Source of the DNA: Calditrichota bacterium
Lineage (GTDB): Bacteria; Calditrichota; Calditrichia; RBG-13-44-9; J042
Reading direction: 5' to 3'
Length of the DNA: 38,822 nucleotides
NCBI GenBank assembly: GCA_013150955.1
Contig: JAADJD010000057.1
Span: forward strand, 1 to 38,822
The position numbers and the translations under genes were made by a program. Below the pieces are notes generated by a model that did not search any database, was not told where the DNA came from, and was given only the letters and a program-made list of their open reading frames with translations. Each line of letters begins with the position of its first letter. Position 1 is the stretch's first letter. Shown one piece after another: positions 21,682 through 29,324 of this stretch.

Positions 21682-21699
21682 TTTTAGGTATGCCTAAAA
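21682..21699. promoter_or_regulatory. DtxR/MntR-type operator palindrome
   Basis: TTTTAGG-TATG-CCTAAAA is an 18-bp palindrome with a single non-matching position per half. The TTAGG...CCTAA arms match the general form of DtxR/IdeR/SirR-family boxes. It lies 6 bases upstream of the predicted -35 of the adjacent DtxR-family gene, suggesting autoregulation of the whole operon by metal. Confidence 0.65.
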
Positions 21700-21751: not shown

Positions 21752-22444
21752 ATGGGTGCCATGAAACGGGTGATTGAAGATTATTTGAAAACGATTTACG
21801 ATCTTTACACAACGGAAGGCAGGGTGACCACCACCGCACTGGCACAACGATTAAAAATTACCCCGGCATCGGTGACCGGGATGTTGAAAAAGCTGGCCCG
21901 GATGAATCTGGTGCAGTACGAGCGGTACCAGGGCGTGCGGTTGACCCCTGCCGGTGAACAGATCGCGCTGGAAGTCATTCGTCACCACCGGCTAATCGAA
22001 CTGTTTCTGGCGCAGGCATTGAATGTACCCTGGGATCAGGTGCACGAAGAGGCCGAAAAATGGGAGCATGTTCTGTCCGAAGAAATGGAGGACCGCATCG
22101 ACCGGTGGCTGGGATCGCCCAAAACGGATCCGCACGGCTCACCCATTCCCGATAAAAATGGTAAGATTGAAGAGCCACCCAAAGTGCGTTTAAGCGAGGT
22201 GGGTCCCTCCAGCCAGGCCGTGGTGGCCGAGGTGAGCGATCACGACCCGGAATTGTTGCGCTATCTGGGAAAGCTCAACATTTATCCGCAAACCCGGTTG
22301 ATTATTCTGGAAATCGAGCCGTTTGATCAATCCATGCACGTGCAGGTCGGTGAACAGACCCACGTGCTGAGTGCCCTGGTGACTCGATGCATCTGGGTAA
22401 CCGGGGTGGAATCCATTAATCGATCGAACGATGCAATTTCGTAA
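21752..22444 (+). CDS. DtxR/MntR-family metal-dependent transcriptional regulator
   Basis: A 230-residue repressor-type regulator. The N-terminal winged helix (about 1-70) has IEDYLKTIYDL, then TTTALAQRLKITPASVTGMLKKLA (recognition helix) and VQYERYQGVRLTPAGE. The metal-sensing/dimerisation region has HHRLIELFLAQALNVPWDQVHEEAEKWEHVLSEEMEDRI, which contains the usual His/Glu ligands. A C-terminal FeoA/SH3-like domain (about 150-220) completes the long form of the family. ATG at 21761 (MKRVIEDY) is an equally good start. The TTTTAGG palindrome just upstream is its likely binding site. It heads an operon for Mn/Zn/Fe uptake, which it probably represses when metal is sufficient. Confidence 0.88.
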   Translation: MGAMKRVIEDYLKTIYDLYTTEGRVTTTALAQRLKITPASVTGMLKKLARMNLVQYERYQGVRLTPAGEQIALEVIRHHRLIELFLAQALNVPWDQVHEEAEKWEHVLSEEMEDRIDRWLGSPKTDPHGSPIPDKNGKIEEPPKVRLSEVGPSSQAVVAEVSDHDPELLRYLGKLNIYPQTRLIILEIEPFDQSMHVQVGEQTHVLSALVTRCIWVTGVESINRSNDAIS

Positions 22445-22473
22445 CCCTTTCACATTAACCATGAGGTGTGATG

Positions 22474-23304
22474 ATGCGTAAACGTTTGCCGGTAGACCGG
22501 ACAACGCGTTCTGGGAAGGGATGGATGATCGGGACGCTGGTAGTGGCAATGATTTTCGCCATTCCGGGACACCCGACCTTGTGGGCCCAACAGGTGCCAC
22601 CGATTGTGGGGGAACGTCCCGGATACGGGGAAAGCACCCTGACGGTTCCACCGGGATTTGTTCAGGTGGAAATGGGATACACCTTCTTCCGTCAGGATCC
22701 GCTGGACCAGCAAACCATTGGGGAATTGTTGATTCGATTTCCCCTGACCGATCGGATTGAGCTGCGGCTGCTGGGGAATTCCTATCTGGTGCAGAAGACC
22801 AATCGAGGGAACCCGGTGGAGGGGATGGAAGATGCGGGTGTTGGAGTAAAGTTTCAGTTGAGCCGATCCACCGGGAGCCGCTTCGACCTGATGCATCCAC
22901 AAACGGTGTTGATTGTGGGAACGACCATTCCCACGGGAAATCGCGCCTTTCGTGCCGGTAAGCCGCAGCCATCGGTGAAGTTTGGGATTGAGTATCCGCT
23001 CAACGATCGCTTTTCGGTAAACGCGTTCTTTAACGGGGACTGGTCTGTGGACGGGGATCGTTATACCACGCAATGGTCCAGCAGCTTTTCGGTAGGTGCG
23101 AATTTGACCGAAACCCTCTCCTCCTTTGTGGAAGTTTACGGAATTTTTCCCATGGCGGAAGGGCTTGAGCAAACGGGATTTGTGGATGGCGGCGTGACCT
23201 ATTTGTTCAATGATAATCTGGCATGGGATGTCCATGCTGGCTGGCAGGTCCTGGGGGAGGGTAACGGATTTTTTATTGGCAGTGGTCTGATTGCCCGCTT
23301 TTAA
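22474..23304 (+). CDS. Outer-membrane beta-barrel protein of the metal-uptake operon
   Basis: A 276-residue protein with an N-terminal signal (hydrophobic stretch about 18-34, cleavage near LWAQ). The mature protein is a series of amphipathic strands: FVQVEMGYTFFRQD, LLIRFPLTDRIELRLLG, GVGVKFQLS, SVKFGIEYPLNDRFSVNAFF; the C-terminus is IGSGLIARF with the terminal Phe of outer-membrane barrels. It resembles the MetA-pathway/transporter barrel family (PF13557-like). It sits between the metal regulator and the binding-protein gene, so a role in metal passage through the outer membrane is an inference. GAGGTG (22463-22468) favours ATG 22474 over GTG 22468. Confidence 0.7.
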   Translation: MRKRLPVDRTTRSGKGWMIGTLVVAMIFAIPGHPTLWAQQVPPIVGERPGYGESTLTVPPGFVQVEMGYTFFRQDPLDQQTIGELLIRFPLTDRIELRLLGNSYLVQKTNRGNPVEGMEDAGVGVKFQLSRSTGSRFDLMHPQTVLIVGTTIPTGNRAFRAGKPQPSVKFGIEYPLNDRFSVNAFFNGDWSVDGDRYTTQWSSSFSVGANLTETLSSFVEVYGIFPMAEGLEQTGFVDGGVTYLFNDNLAWDVHAGWQVLGEGNGFFIGSGLIARF

Positions 23305-23331: not shown

Positions 23332-24435
23332 ATGATGCCGGTTTGGAAAAATCAATATCCGGGAACCACAGGGATGATGGGACGCAGGCGGCTTAACCGG
23401 ACAAAGGTGCTCAGGGATTCCGCTCGCGTCCGTTTCATCGCAGTGGCCATTCTTTGCGGGCTTATCGTGATAGGCTTGATTGGGTGCAGCCGGACCCGGT
23501 TGGAGCGTGGGCAATGGCAGATCGAGCGGCCGGTTACCGAGGCCCATCCCATTAAGATTGTTACCACCACCGGGATGATTGCCGATGCGGCCAGCGAGGT
23601 GGGGGGGCGCTGGGTATCGGTAAAGGCGCTGATGGGTCCCGGTGTAGATCCCCACCTGTACAAAGCCCGCGAAGGGGATGTATTGCTGCTGGCGGATGCG
23701 GATCTGATTCTTTACAATGGGCTCCACCTGGAAGGCAAAATGACCGACATCCTGAAGCAGCTGGGAGACTACATCCCCACAGTAGCGGTAGCAGAGGCCA
23801 TTCCCGAAAGCCTGCTCATTGCACCGCCAGAATATGAAGGCAATTACGATCCCCACATCTGGTTTGATGTGCGCCTGTGGATGCGGGTGGTGGAAACGAT
23901 TCGGGATGTGCTGGTGGAGCTGGATCCATCGCATGCCGCGGATTACCGGGCCAATGCATCCCGGTACCTGCAGCAGCTGGAAGAACTGCATGAGTATGTC
24001 TGGAATCGGGCCCGCGAGGTCCCGGAAAGGATTCGGGTATTAATCACCGCGCACGATGCATTTAACTATTTCAGCCGGGCCTATCATTTTCCGGTGAGGG
24101 GGTTGCAGGGCATCAGTACCGCTGCGGAGGCGGGAATTTCGGATGTTCGCGAGCTGGCGGACTTCATTGTTTCGCGGCGCATTCCGGCAATCTTTGTGGA
24201 AACCTCGGTGCCCCCGCGTTATATCGAGGCGCTGCGGGAGGCCGTTCGTGCCCGCGGGTTCGACGTGAAAATAGGGGGAGCACTATATTCGGATGCCCTG
24301 GGAACTCCGGGAACGCCCGAAGGCACCTACCTGGGCATGGTCCGCTATAACATCGATACCATCGTTTCCGCGCTGTTGCAGCAACCCCTGTCGCAGTACG
24401 GGATCGAAAAACAATCGGGGAGAGCGTCCATATGA
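23332..24435 (+). CDS. Metal-binding lipoprotein of ABC importer, TroA/ZnuA-like
   Basis: A 367-residue cluster A-I solute-binding protein. A long N-region precedes a hydrophobic signal and lipobox LIGC (Cys52). Probable metal ligands are His108 (VDPHLYKA), His175 (YDPHIWFD), His241 (TAHDAFNYF) and Asp321 (LYSDALG). A His rather than Glu at the third site matches TroA/ZnuA-type proteins more than strictly Mn-type PsaA. No His-rich zinc loop is visible. The natural start could be later (Met15/16). The stop codon overlaps the ATPase start by ATGA. It captures Zn, Mn or Fe ions in the periplasm and delivers them to the permeases encoded downstream. Confidence 0.9.
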
Positions 24436-25193
24436 ATACAATGGAAAAATCCGGCCCGATGGCCATTGAAATAGAGGATCTGACCGTGGCCTATCAACAT
24501 CAGCCGGTGTTGTGGGATGTGGATTTAAACATCCCGCAGGGGGTGTTGATGGCCATTGTGGGACCCAATGGCGCCGGGAAGACCACCCTGATCAAGACGG
24601 TTCTGGGTCTGGTAAAACCACTGGCGGGAGAAGTGCGCATTTTCGGAAAGCCGTATGAACAGCAGCGACAGCGGGTGGCGTACGTGCCCCAACGCAGCAG
24701 TGTGGACTGGGACTTTCCGACCACCGTGTTGGATGTGGTGATGATGGGACGTTACGGACAGCTGGGCTGGTTTCGGCGTCCGGGGAAAAAGGAGCGGCAG
24801 CTGGCCATGGCGGCTCTGGAAAAACTGGGAATGGAGGCCTTTGCGCATCGGCAGATCAGTCAGCTATCCGGCGGACAGCAGCAACGCGTTTTCCTGGCCC
24901 GTGCACTGGTTCAGGATGCGGATATCTATTTAATGGATGAACCGTTCCAGGGAGTGGATGCCACCACCGAGCGGGCCATCGTGGCCCTGCTCCAGGAATT
25001 GAGCCGTCAGCAAAAAACCGTGGTAGTGGTGCATCATGACCTTCAGTCGGTACCGGACTATTTTAACTGGGTGGCACTGCTGAATGTGCGGGCCATTGCC
25101 AGTGGTCCCGTTGACGAGGTGTTCACGCTGGAAAATCTCAAGAAAACCTATGGCGGCCATCTGGTCTGGATTGATCGCGATGTGCTGGCCTGA
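24432..25193 (+). CDS. Metal ABC transporter ATP-binding protein
   Basis: A 253-residue ABC ATPase of the Mn/Zn/Fe importer family. Walker [10 protein letters not shown] is at about 44-52, Q-loop [13 protein letters not shown] near 85, signature LSGGQQQRV near 144, Walker [13 protein letters not shown] and the H-loop VVVHHDL follow. [20 protein letters not shown] is characteristic of manganese/zinc importers. Its ATG overlaps the stop codon of the binding-protein gene (ATGA), indicating coupled translation. It powers the two permeases, but a dispersed repeat separates it from them by 362 bases. Confidence 0.94.
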
Positions 25194-25339: not shown

Positions 25340-25359
25340 GGGTTTGGGTCTGCCTTAAA

Positions 25360-25524
25360 CCCAAATAAAGCGTTAAACCACGAATCACGCGAATGAATTC
25401 GTAAAAAAGTAACAAAATAGCGAATATATCCGGGAAAAGATTTTCATTCAGATAGAATCAAGTGCATTTTATTATTTTTATTGGTGTTCATTCGTGTAAT
25501 TCGTAGGCGAATGCATAATCTGGG
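25360..25524 (-). mobile_element. MITE-like dispersed element, copy 4 (reverse), inside the metal operon
   Basis: A 165-bp reverse-oriented copy starting CCCAAATAAAGCGTTAAACC and ending CATAATCTGGG. Flanks are TTAAA (25355-25359) and TTCAA (25525-25529), similar but not identical. It stands between the ATPase gene and the first permease gene, ending 31 bases before the permease start codon. Confidence 0.6.
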
Positions 25525-25555
25525 TTCAATATAAAGCATGGGATAAGAAAAGGCT

Positions 25556-26692
25556 ATGGAAGGGCTGGACATTTTGATTCATCTTTTTCGGGATTATACC
25601 CTGCGAAATGTGCTGCTGGGTGCCCTCATCCTGGGGGGTATCAGTGGTGTCCTGGGAGCACTGGCGCTTTTGCGACGGCAGAGCCTGCTGGGGGATACCA
25701 TTTCCCATGCCGCCCTGCCCGGCATTGCCCTGGCGTTTTTGTTCAGCGGGTCCAAGTCCTCGTTGATTTTATTGACCGGAGCGGCCCTGTCCGGCTGGTT
25801 GGCCACCCTGTTCATGCTTCAGGTCGTGCGCAGTTCGCGGATTAAGGACGACACCGCACTGGGGTTGGTCCTGTCGGTGTTTTTTGGTTTTGGTCTGGTG
25901 CTGTTAACCTTTATTCAGAAGCGACCGGATGCGGCTCAGGCCGGTCTGGATAAATTCCTCTTTGGTCAGGCCGCTACCCTCATGGCCGAAGACGTCCGCA
26001 TCATGGCGATTCTCAGCGGTCTGGTGTTTGCCGTGGTGCTGCTTCTGTGGAAGGAGTTCAAAGTCTTTTTGTTCGACACGGGATTTGCCGAAAGTCTGGG
26101 TTTCCCCACCCGACGCCTGGACGTGCTTCTGCTGTCCATGCTGGTTATTACCATTGTGATTGGTTTGCAGACGGTGGGGGTGGTGTTGATGAGTGCCATG
26201 GTGGTGGCACCGGCGGCGGCGGCACGTCAGTGGACGCATCGGCTGGAACGCATGGTATTGCTGTCCGGTGCTTTTGGGATGATCGCCGGTGTGGTGGGAT
26301 CGCTGGCCAGCAGTGTGGTGCCCCGCTTGCCCACCGGACCCACCATCGTCGTCGTGGCCACCATTCTGGTCCTGTTCTCTCTGCTTTTTGCTCCTGCACG
26401 GGGCATTCTGTGGAATTGGTTTATGCAGAAGCGAAATCAAAAAGAGATCCACGTGCAAATTGCTTTGCTGACCCTGCTGGAACTGGCCGAACATCATCAC
26501 GACTTTCGACATCAGCATTCCCTTCAGGTGATTCAGGCGGCCTTACCCCGGAACACCCACCTGAAGCGCACGCTTCAGGAATTGCGCGAAAGGGGATGGG
26601 TGGATGAACCCCGAAAGGGCTATCTTTCCCTGACCCCCGCCGGCGTGGAAGCGGCACGGAAATTTCGTCAATCGCGGGAGGGCAAAGCATGA
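25556..26692 (+). CDS. Metal ABC permease with C-terminal winged-helix domain (1)
   Basis: A 378-residue protein. Residues about 10-285 are a polytopic ABC-3 family permease: LRNVLLGALILGGISGVLGALALLRRQSLLGDTISHAALPGIAL is the classic start, with VGVVLMSAMVVAPAAAARQW near residue 215. Residues about 290-378 form an extra soluble domain (KEIHVQIALLTLLELAEHH..., LQELRERGWVDEPRKGYLSLTPAGVEAAR) with the helix-turn-helix-wing pattern of DtxR/MarR-like winged helices. The domain is at the cytoplasmic C-terminus. ATG 25556 follows AAGAAAAGG. The stop overlaps the second permease gene by ATGA. Confidence 0.9.
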   Translation: MEGLDILIHLFRDYTLRNVLLGALILGGISGVLGALALLRRQSLLGDTISHAALPGIALAFLFSGSKSSLILLTGAALSGWLATLFMLQVVRSSRIKDDTALGLVLSVFFGFGLVLLTFIQKRPDAAQAGLDKFLFGQAATLMAEDVRIMAILSGLVFAVVLLLWKEFKVFLFDTGFAESLGFPTRRLDVLLLSMLVITIVIGLQTVGVVLMSAMVVAPAAAARQWTHRLERMVLLSGAFGMIAGVVGSLASSVVPRLPTGPTIVVVATILVLFSLLFAPARGILWNWFMQKRNQKEIHVQIALLTLLELAEHHHDFRHQHSLQVIQAALPRNTHLKRTLQELRERGWVDEPRKGYLSLTPAGVEAARKFRQSREGKA

Positions 26693-27795
26693 ATATCCTG
26701 CAACTGGAAATCCAGCTGGTGGCTGTTGTTGTGGCCATTGCCTGTGCGTTACCGGGAACCTTTCTGGTGCTACGAAAAATGGCCATGATGAGCGACGCCA
26801 TTAGCCATTCGATTCTGTTCGGAATAGTGGTTGCATTTTTTTACACCCACGACCTGTCCTCCCCGCTGCTGGTGCTGGCAGCCACAGCAACCGGACTACT
26901 AACCGCCCTGTTCGTGGAATTGCTGTACAAATCCCGCAGAGTGGGAGAGGATGCCGCCATCGGCCTGGTGTTCCCCTTTTTGTTCAGCATCGGTGTTATC
27001 CTCATATCCCGATACGCCGGGAACATTCACCTGGACACCGATGCCGTTCTGCTGGGCGAAATTGCCTTTACCCCGTTTGAACGATTGACCATTGGTGGAC
27101 TGGACTGGGGTCCCAAGGCGCTGTACGTGATGGGAGGCATTTTGCTCCTGAACATTCTCTTTATTGGAGCCCTGTACAAGGAGTTAAAACTGGCCACATT
27201 TGATCCGGCGCTGGCTGCGGCGCTGGGCTTTTCCCCGGCATGGATTCATTATCTGTTGATGGGATTGGTTTCCCTGACGGCCGTGGGGGCCTTCGATGCG
27301 GTGGGATCCATCCTGGTGGTGGCGCTCATGATTGGCCCGCCGGCCGCAGCCTACCTGCTGACCGATCGCCTTTCCCACATGCTGCTGCTTAGTGCAGGCA
27401 TTGGCGTTCTGGGTTCCATTGGGGGATACTGGCTGGCACATGTTCTCAATGCTTCCATTGCCGGTTCGATGGCGACCATTATTGGAATCGTCTTCGTGCT
27501 GGTGTATTTGCTGGCACCGGAGCGGGGTGTGCTGGCGCTATACCGTCGTCGGCAGCAACAGCGCCTTGAAACCGCCGTGACCATGCTACTGGTGCATATT
27601 CGTAGCCATCAGCACCGTACCGAGGCGGAGGACGAATGTCATATCGATCATCTGTATTCCCATCTGAAATGGGATCCCCAGTATACCCGGCGCATCATCC
27701 AGCACTGCCAGAAGGAAGGGTGGCTTTACTTGAAGGACGATTTGCTGTACCTGACTGAAAAAGGAAAAGCCCATATCCAGCAGGTTGCAGAATGA
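26689..27795 (+). CDS. Metal ABC permease with C-terminal winged-helix domain (2)
   Basis: A 368-residue partner permease. The N-terminal ABC-3 part has VAIACALPGTFLVLRKMAMMSDAISHSILFGIVVAF and VGSILVVALMIGPPAAAYLL near residue 205. As in the first permease, residues about 285-368 are an added soluble domain ending HCQKEGWLYLKDDLLYLTEKGKAHI, again winged-helix-like (helix, then a wing strand, then a TEKG turn). The two proteins probably form a heterodimeric channel driven by the upstream ATPase. The start overlaps the previous stop codon (ATGA). It is the last gene of the operon; a dispersed repeat starts about 80 bases downstream. Confidence 0.9.
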   Translation: MNILQLEIQLVAVVVAIACALPGTFLVLRKMAMMSDAISHSILFGIVVAFFYTHDLSSPLLVLAATATGLLTALFVELLYKSRRVGEDAAIGLVFPFLFSIGVILISRYAGNIHLDTDAVLLGEIAFTPFERLTIGGLDWGPKALYVMGGILLLNILFIGALYKELKLATFDPALAAALGFSPAWIHYLLMGLVSLTAVGAFDAVGSILVVALMIGPPAAAYLLTDRLSHMLLLSAGIGVLGSIGGYWLAHVLNASIAGSMATIIGIVFVLVYLLAPERGVLALYRRRQQQRLETAVTMLLVHIRSHQHRTEAEDECHIDHLYSHLKWDPQYTRRIIQHCQKEGWLYLKDDLLYLTEKGKAHIQQVAE

Positions 27796-27873
27796 TTTCC
27801 ATCCTCACCAATCATTTTGATGGGGCAGGGAAAAACAGTGAATTCCGGTTTTCGTTTACTCCTGTGTTTTTAA

Positions 27874-28087
27874 CCCCGGATTATGCATTAGAACCACGAA
27901 TTACACGAATTAACACAAATAAAATTAATCAAATACCTTGGATTAGATCTGGATGAAAATGTGTTTCGGAGTTTATTCGCGATTTTGTAGATATTTTTGG
28001 GTTTCATTCGCGTGATTCGCTGTTTAATGCACTTTTTGGGTTTATTCGTGTTCATTCGTGTCATTCGTAGGCTAAAGCATAATCTGG
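27874..28087 (+). mobile_element. MITE-like dispersed element, copy 5 (forward) plus extra right arm
   Basis: A forward copy starts CCCCGGATTATGCATTAG (27874) and ends TTTTTGGG (28040). An additional right-end arm (TTTATTCGTG...GCATAATCTGG) follows to 28087. TTTAA precedes the left end (27869-27873) and TTTAT follows the inner right end. It fills the convergent gap between the second metal permease gene and the DUF5777 gene. Confidence 0.6.
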
Positions 28088-28115
28088 TTTTATTACCGAA
28101 TGAAATTCGCTGTGG

Positions 28116-28991: not shown

Positions 28992-29050
28992 GGTGGTTTC
29001 CTCCTGATTTATTCCCCTTTTCAATTGATCTATTTCAATCCGTGGTTTAA

Positions 29051-29214
29051 CCCAAATTATGCAATAAACCGCGAATCACACGAATGAAACAAAAAATATC
29101 TACAAAATCGCGAATAAACCCTGGAACACATTTTTATCCAGATATAATCCAATGTACTTTATTTGTTTTGTTTGTGTTAATTCGTGTCATTCGTAGGCTA
29201 ATGCATAATCTGGG
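29051..29214 (-). mobile_element. MITE-like dispersed element, copy 6 (reverse), TTTAA duplication
   Basis: A 164-bp reverse copy from CCCAAATTATGCAATAAACC to AATGCATAATCTGGG. TTTAA occurs on both sides as a direct repeat (29046-29050, 29215-29219). It separates the DUF5777 gene from the YceI gene. The remaining 29220-29324 shows no gene or clear signal. Confidence 0.65.
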
Positions 29215-29324
29215 TTTAAATCTTTCGTTCAGCAGAGTGTCCATTTCTTTCTGGTCAGACATTGCCACCAGGCGTATGGTAGTCTGAAGCGCCCTTCGCT
29301 TGCGCCTGCTTGGAGCACCATTCG

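Follow-up and report, generated by a model that had tools for sequence, protein, structure and literature searches.

Both permeases of a metal ABC importer encoded in a Calditrichota genome continue past their membrane domains into soluble tails that resemble winged helices, and a DtxR-type regulator is encoded upstream of them. What such tails do on a transporter, and whether they have to do with the regulator, is the question raised by the locus. The window referred to below is the whole stretch of DNA analysed (38,822 nucleotides, contig JAADJD010000057.1).

The gene cluster and its permeases

The window contains the following features of the metal import locus.

21684..21697, no strand assigned: likely MntR/DtxR operator, TTAGGTATGCCTAA, 54 bp upstream of the regulator gene
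21752..22444, plus strand: standalone MntR/DtxR-type regulator with helix-turn-helix, metal/dimerisation and FeoA domains (Pfam Fe_dep_repress 3.7e-19, Fe_dep_repr_C 3.7e-31, FeoA 3.4e-12)
22468..23304, plus strand: outer-membrane barrel-like protein (PF13557, E 2e-14)
23332..24435, plus strand: ZnuA/MntC-type metal-binding lipoprotein (PF01297, E 2.6e-77)
24432..25193, plus strand: ABC ATPase of Mn/Zn importer type (PF00005, E 4.4e-32; best NCBIfam match MntA-type, below cut-off)
25355..25540, no strand assigned: interspersed repeat with inverted-repeat ends in the gap between the ATPase gene and permease 1 (arms 25355-25418 and 25466-25529)
25556-26692, plus strand: permease 1 (p1), ORF of 378 aa (ABC-3 domain, E 2.2e-72)
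25556..26404, plus strand: p1 membrane domain, residues 1-283 (ABC-3, E 2.2e-72)
26405..26692, plus strand: p1 tail, residues 284-378, winged helix by AlphaFold2 and fold match (H314 at 26495-26497, H321 at 26516-26518)
26689-27795, plus strand: permease 2 (p2), ORF of 368 aa (ABC-3 domain, E 3e-45)
26689..27528, plus strand: p2 membrane domain, residues 1-280 (ABC-3, E 3e-45)
27529..27795, plus strand: p2 tail, residues 281-368, winged helix by AlphaFold2 and fold match (H303 at 27595-27597, H307 at 27607-27609, E316 at 27634-27636, W328 at 27670-27672)

The NCBIfam scores of the importer genes all lie below cut-off and are divided between Mn and Zn types; the best NCBIfam match of the regulator is MntR, also at a score below cut-off. 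The ATPase comprises 253 aa, with no added Pfam domain among the 25 matches listed. The stop codon of p1 and the start codon of p2 overlap (ATGA). The regulator gene had been assigned to the permease operon by the first-pass annotation; it is indeed present about 3 kb upstream, but the ATPase gene and p1 are separated by a repeat-bearing gap of 362 bp, so that a single transcript of all six genes is at most presumptive. The AT-rich repeat, of a MITE- or REP-like kind, occurs in the window at 25355-25540, 27869-28092 and 29046-29220 and has at least 61 matches in its own genome, a floor obtained with 40 of 737 candidates fully scored. The barrel-like protein, placed as it is in a metal gene cluster, is possibly an outer-membrane metal channel, and homologues of it adjoin the same importer system in loci L037, L086, L091 and L092.

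Membership of both permeases in the ABC-3 family (PF00950) is supported by 244.1 bits for p1 and 155.2 bits for p2 against a gathering score of 20.1, with the Pfam domain ending around residue 278 in p1 and 274 in p2. Residues D47, H51 and D99 of p1 are invariant across 16 aligned relatives, as are D36, H40 and D88 of p2 across 15; they are matched, by residue numbers in PMC8487065 and not by structure, to the metal residues reported there as D47/H51/D94 of Bacillus anthracis MntC. The same paper reports that cutting the cytoplasmic C-terminal helix of MntC abolished Mn activity while membrane expression was normal (PMC8487065), hence the point at which the tails are attached is one that matters. 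The manganese importers PsaBC and MntBC have permeases of the same family (for p2 the top fold match is PsaB, at Z 30.8) and share the D-H-D residues and the cytoplasmic C-terminal helix with the window proteins; they are described as homodimeric, however, in PMC11779740, whereas the window encodes two unlike permeases, both tailed.

The fold of the tails

That each permease has an additional domain of about 85 residues with a helix-turn-helix and a wing-like end, as first proposed from the open reading frames, is borne out: both reading frames and both motifs quoted for them are present, and the tails measure 85-95 residues. AlphaFold2 models of the single chains (alignments of 16 and 15 sequences, mean pLDDT 72.0 for p1 and 83.4 for p2) give both tails the element order helix-helix-helix-strand-strand-helix of a winged helix, at block pLDDT values of ∼65-82 for p1 (residues 284-377) and ∼81-91 for p2 (residues 281-367), and have the first tail helix directly follow the last transmembrane helix in both permeases. 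Structure prediction compared with the DtxR/MntR N-domain, the check suggested by the first-pass annotation, thus returned winged helices of DtxR/MntR likeness, that of p2 above all. Against PDB chains preselected with Foldseek (996 for p1, 1000 for p2) and with VIA-align rows within one Z unit taken as tied, the best soluble match of p2 283-368 is E. coli MntR (2h09; Z 12.5, rmsd 2.2, 83 residues), above rows for CggR (Z 12.0), MarR-type proteins (at most 11.6) and DtxR (10.8). The p1 tail, from about residue 290 to 378, matches AF1382/MarR-type winged helices at Z ∼9-10, and MarR folds fit it as well as DtxR does. These models make each tail an in-frame C-terminal extension of its permease with a DtxR-type winged helix, DtxR being favoured over MarR for p2 only.

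The sequence links are faint in comparison. Searches of PDB and Pfam with the tail sequences returned weak winged-helix matches only: the p2 tail reaches MntR at E 0.046, and the p1 tail reaches AdcR/ZitR, in first place, and a DtxR-type regulator at E ∼0.01. The profiles of the two tails match each other (hhalign, 90%). The metal-binding/dimerisation domain of DtxR (PF02742) is absent, by Pfam, from both window tails.

A third ABC-3 permease of the genome (L003 1027-2286, in G000:C6) has a different C-terminal extension, composed of an extra hydrophobic stretch, a His-rich linker and a domain of about 90 aa with an FGY-like motif, for which Pfam returned no further match at 0.01. Tails like this one are found in other genomes of the phylum (L016-L025).

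Distribution and selection

The permease pair is present in 10 of 40 genomes of the window's phylum, and both tails are intact in nine of these, the p1 frame being interrupted in the other (G035). Chloroflexota contribute at least 54 of 301 genomes in which the p2 match runs unbroken to residue 360 or beyond, plus one (G333) in which it is split. For 246 genomes of Actinomycetota, the phylum of Gleimia, seven among the matches listed begin in the N-terminal part, reach at least residue 360 and have an identity of no less than 46%, and additional loci are tailed by frame reading. Deinococcus plasmids have p2 tails only, Paracoccus aestuarii has both tails and Halomonas has a p1 tail only; one Clostridia locus and one Gleimia locus have neither. 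In a sample gathered by similarity to the window permeases, and therefore not a census, tails of at least 75 aa are found on 72 of 74 distinct p2-type proteins and on 40 of 75 distinct p1-type proteins, the p1 tail being absent from the other 35 (L094, with a broken p1 frame, and L096, with a 53-aa tail, entered as short; the tail alignment did not include G014). The idea that one tail always requires the other is rejected on account of the many p2-only loci and the one that is p1-only.

Compared with its close relative L037, the window shows a p2 dN/dS of 0.047 for the membrane domain and 0.18 for the tail. The p1 membrane domain gives 0.053; for the p1 tail dN/dS is not computable, pN being 0.227 against a saturated pS of 0.752. 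The MntR N-domain gives 0.058. Judged from these codon comparisons, the tails are kept under purifying selection that is looser than on the membrane domains. Wide occurrence among p1- and p2-type proteins and purifying selection together argue that the tails are not a product of chance.

Conserved histidines and glutamate

The p2 tails have H303, H307 and E316 together in 71 of 81 aligned rows, and W328 in all 81. The 10 exceptions, seven loci from the Actinomycetota search (L141-L147) and three from Deinococcus, retain the tail and W328; H303 is lost in 10 of them, H307 in 9 and E316 in 8, and the loop is shortened. H314 and H321 of the p1 tail occur together in 40 of 42. (L157, the DtxR-like tail of which is cut by the contig end, is labelled winged helix in these counts and in the tree below.) From the 27 loci that have MntR as well as both permeases, 14 same-genome sets of less than 90% identity were used, window included and G014 left out. 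In 13 of these sets (L158 has no p1 winged helix) the invariant residues are A283, R292, A296, L300, H303, H307, E316, W328, L353, L355, T356 and G359 in p2 tails, and W286, L307, H314, H321, L340, L343, L359, G363 and A367 in p1 tails. MntR of the same sets retains D10, H79, E83, H98, E105 and H106, among others, which we take to be its likely metal ligands. Metal sensing by the tails, as suggested earlier, is thus conceivable on a new basis: although without the DtxR metal domain, they have near-invariant His/Glu residues.

H303 and H307 are predicted to lie one turn apart in their helix, on the core side, a placement that would be compatible with a metal site or with hydrogen bonding in a buried network. 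The second option underlies the main rival to a module acting in cis on transport, namely that the tails do no more than stabilise the two permeases as a pair or the docking of this pair on the ATPase, with His, Glu and Trp in a buried network and no metal site. Helical periodicity, by which H303 and H307 would share a helix face with the core residues A296 and L300, is consistent with this structural role, as are the persistence of W328 even in rows that lack the His/Glu set and the essential tail-joined cytoplasmic helix of MntC (PMC8487065). The absence of the p1 tail from 35 of 75 distinct proteins means, on the other hand, that stability does not require it, and the joint loss of H303, H307 and E316 with a shortened loop looks like the loss of a site. 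We consider a purely structural role unlikely, if a serious contender.

DNA reading and the regulator

The first-pass annotation had also suggested that the tails could bind DNA at the membrane, and the comparison with MntR from the same genomes speaks against it. At five exposed recognition-helix positions, which from DtxR/IdeR work we assume to touch DNA, the mean entropy in the 14 sets is 1.00 bits for MntR compared to 2.04 for p1 tails and 1.97 for p2 tails, while entropies over the whole domain are close (1.33, 1.48 and 1.61). The mean net charge is +2.3 for the MntR N-domain and -1.0 and -2.2 for the tails; single proteins vary, with +4 for the window's own p1 tail and -2 for its p2 tail. 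DNA binding at the membrane is rejected in consideration of both the drift of contact positions and the negative mean charge. The tails therefore share the winged-helix fold with the DtxR/MntR N-domain but differ from it in lacking the metal/dimerisation domain, in DNA contacts that are not conserved and in new near-invariant His/Glu residues. Loss of DNA-contact and metal residues across homologues, named at the outset as evidence against a sensing or DNA-binding tail, is found for the former; the His/Glu residues are retained.

The site at window 21684-21697 is a likely operator, a near-perfect one of what is presumably the DtxR-family type. The sole exact copy of TTAGGNNNNCCTAA in the 4.07-Mb genome is this site, compared to 15 per strand for the reversed-pattern control, and the motif recurs in 18 other locus entries scanned, close to the gene for the regulator or for the binding protein (17 distinct places, L037 and L087 being one). 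A site with one mismatch allowed is not unusual in the window alone (43 of 100 shuffles), hence it is exactness, uniqueness and recurrence that carry the operator call. The regulon may perhaps consist of one site. A dedicated MntR operator would already explain transcription.

A different link to MntR would be by protein contact, with the tails binding or holding the standalone regulator and so coupling transporter state to transcription. Winged helices can serve as protein-contact modules, and an adjacent DtxR gene is found in 14 of 21 loci with a p1 tail compared to 5 of 29 without (Fisher p 0.0009, uncorrected; 50 loci with flanks of at least 3.5 kb and 2.5 kb, G014 counted as tailed, and L094 with its broken p1 frame, L046 at a contig end and L096 with its 53-aa tail left out). 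The raw association thus agrees with the flux-to-regulator link first proposed, but on the tree it reduces to one well-supported independent contrast (five on the best tree) without significance, too few to count. A DtxR gene is missing within 7 kb, or up to the locus end, from seven of the 21 loci with a tailed p1 and likewise from 24 of the 29 with an untailed p1, all but one of which have a tailed p2; moreover, the tails lack the DtxR dimerisation domain. We regard contact with MntR as improbable. A strict requirement for an adjacent DtxR gene is rejected, p2 tails persisting where there is none.

Other arrangements of regulator and permease were observed. In L128 (5971-7002, G051) p2 is directly followed by a gene for a DtxR-like protein of 344 aa that has two FeoA stretches, and a second DtxR gene is present as well. 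On Deinococcus plasmids short DtxR-type regulators of about 114-131 aa, annotated as metal-dependent regulators, directly follow the tailed p2 (L158 6016-6411, L160 6061-6405), L158 having a full-length one upstream as well.

Ancestry of the tails

Longer fusions exist among the relatives. Both permeases of G014 (L086) end in a helix-turn-helix-like stretch followed by Fe_dep_repr_C (8.6e-15 and 1.1e-15), the p2 HxxxH being absent from these longer tails, and the cluster also has the operator motif. With its standalone regulator, it comprises three DtxR modules, one of them per permease (L086 5574-8174). The Actinomycetota search retrieved a permease with Fe_dep_repr_C and FeoA in one frame in L154 and L156; L148-L150 have p1 tails of similar length, with weak scores against the DtxR profile. 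In a quick, midpoint-rooted tree built from 115 membrane domains (43 of the 112 inner branches are drawn open), p1 and p2 separate into two clades, each with G014 close to its base. At least 16 changes are needed for the three tail states and 12 for the winged-helix label, five of the latter forced by starred branches (L046, cut by a contig end, and L094, with a broken p1 frame, labelled as none). Loss of DtxR domains from fusions fits the tree and the longer tails of G014, L154 and L156, and independent fusions remain compatible with them.

Such independence is the substance of a further alternative, in which MarR-like winged helices were fused separately to p1 and p2 and have no DtxR ancestry. 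The fit of the p1 tail to MarR folds, the first place of AdcR/ZitR for its profile and the 12 tree changes of the winged-helix label are points in its favour, opposed by the longer DtxR tails that occupy this position in G014 and other lineages, by the mutual match of the p1 and p2 tail profiles and by MntR as best soluble fold match of the p2 tail. A separate origin appears to us quite improbable.

The nearest known kind of the window tails is the permease-DtxR fusion, the window's being winged helix alone. As reported in PMC7755916 and PMC5599777, chlamydial YtgCR is a fusion of this kind from which cleavage frees the YtgR repressor, and orthologous fusions are spread over 11 phyla. Like YtgCR and the other ABC-3 permease fusions, the window proteins have an in-frame C-terminal DtxR-related domain in a metal-import operon; the YtgCR repressor, however, is cleaved off and binds DNA (PMC7755916, PMC5599777), whereas the window has winged helices alone, on both permeases, and a separate MntR. 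That the tails work likewise as DNA-binding repressors of the operon, cleaved off or tethered, has the chlamydial precedent and its wide occurrence behind it but is very unlikely, considering the missing metal/dimerisation domain, the drifted DNA contacts, the negative mean charge, and the intact MntR with its likely operator. The literature searched, of limited coverage, gave no description of winged-helix-only tails on ABC-3 permeases, and permease winged-helix fusions outside Chlamydia were not recognised in it.

A proposed cis-acting module on transport

The evidence from predicted folds, the p1-p2 profile link, the fusions of G014, L154 and L156, the drift of DNA contacts, the His/Glu residues, selection and the operator favours, in our tentative judgement at somewhat below even confidence, that the tails are eroded DtxR/MntR winged helices reused as cytosolic transport modules, most likely metal-responsive in a transinhibition-like manner. 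As to the direction of evolution, we infer that permease-DtxR fusions shed their metal-binding/dimerisation and FeoA-like domains and that DNA reading ceased. Each tail, hanging on the cytoplasmic helix that prolongs the last transmembrane helix, would act in cis on the importer as a cytosolic module. The His/Glu cluster, located where helix 1 ends and helix 2 begins, would most likely bind the imported metal once that metal is abundant, and the metal-loaded tail would then restrain the permease or the ATPase. Of the two tails, that of p2 would be the core module and that of p1 an optional partner; transcription would be left to the standalone MntR, acting at its one operator.

The transinhibition domain of MetN, we assume, sits on the ATPase. 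Cytosolic domains of ABC importers for methionine and molybdate bind the substrate and stop transport, according to PMC10710835, and it is these MetN- and ModC-like domains, together with the essential C-terminal helix of MntC (PMC8487065), that lead us to place the tails as cis-acting transport modules. The MetN C2 and ModC C-terminal domains are similar to the tails as small cytosolic domains fused to an importer, a likeness proposed in function only; their folds are different and the ModC domain belongs to the ATPase (PMC10710835), whereas the window tails are on the permeases. Several observations weaken the reading as an eroded DtxR module: the 10 p2 tails without the His/His/Glu set and the longer G014 tails without HxxxH; the weak sequence links, the MarR match of p1, the faster evolution of the tail (0.18 vs 0.05) and the 35 of 75 p1 proteins without one; and the association of p1 tail and adjacent DtxR gene, which fits a link to MntR as well.

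The fullest form of the proposal, about which we are more doubtful, is that the DNA-reading half of a metal repressor, placed on both halves of an importer, now serves as a cytosolic sensor of metal and closes the importer directly, while a full-length relative still controls the genes. If true, it would constitute a class of transport switch, permease-borne transinhibition, without precedent in the literature searched. A conserved permease-borne domain with near-invariant histidines in several phyla provides named residues for studying the post-synthesis shut-off of Mn/Zn/Fe ABC importers. It also illustrates a likely route along which a repressor fused to its own transporter gives up its role on DNA and retains one as a protein.
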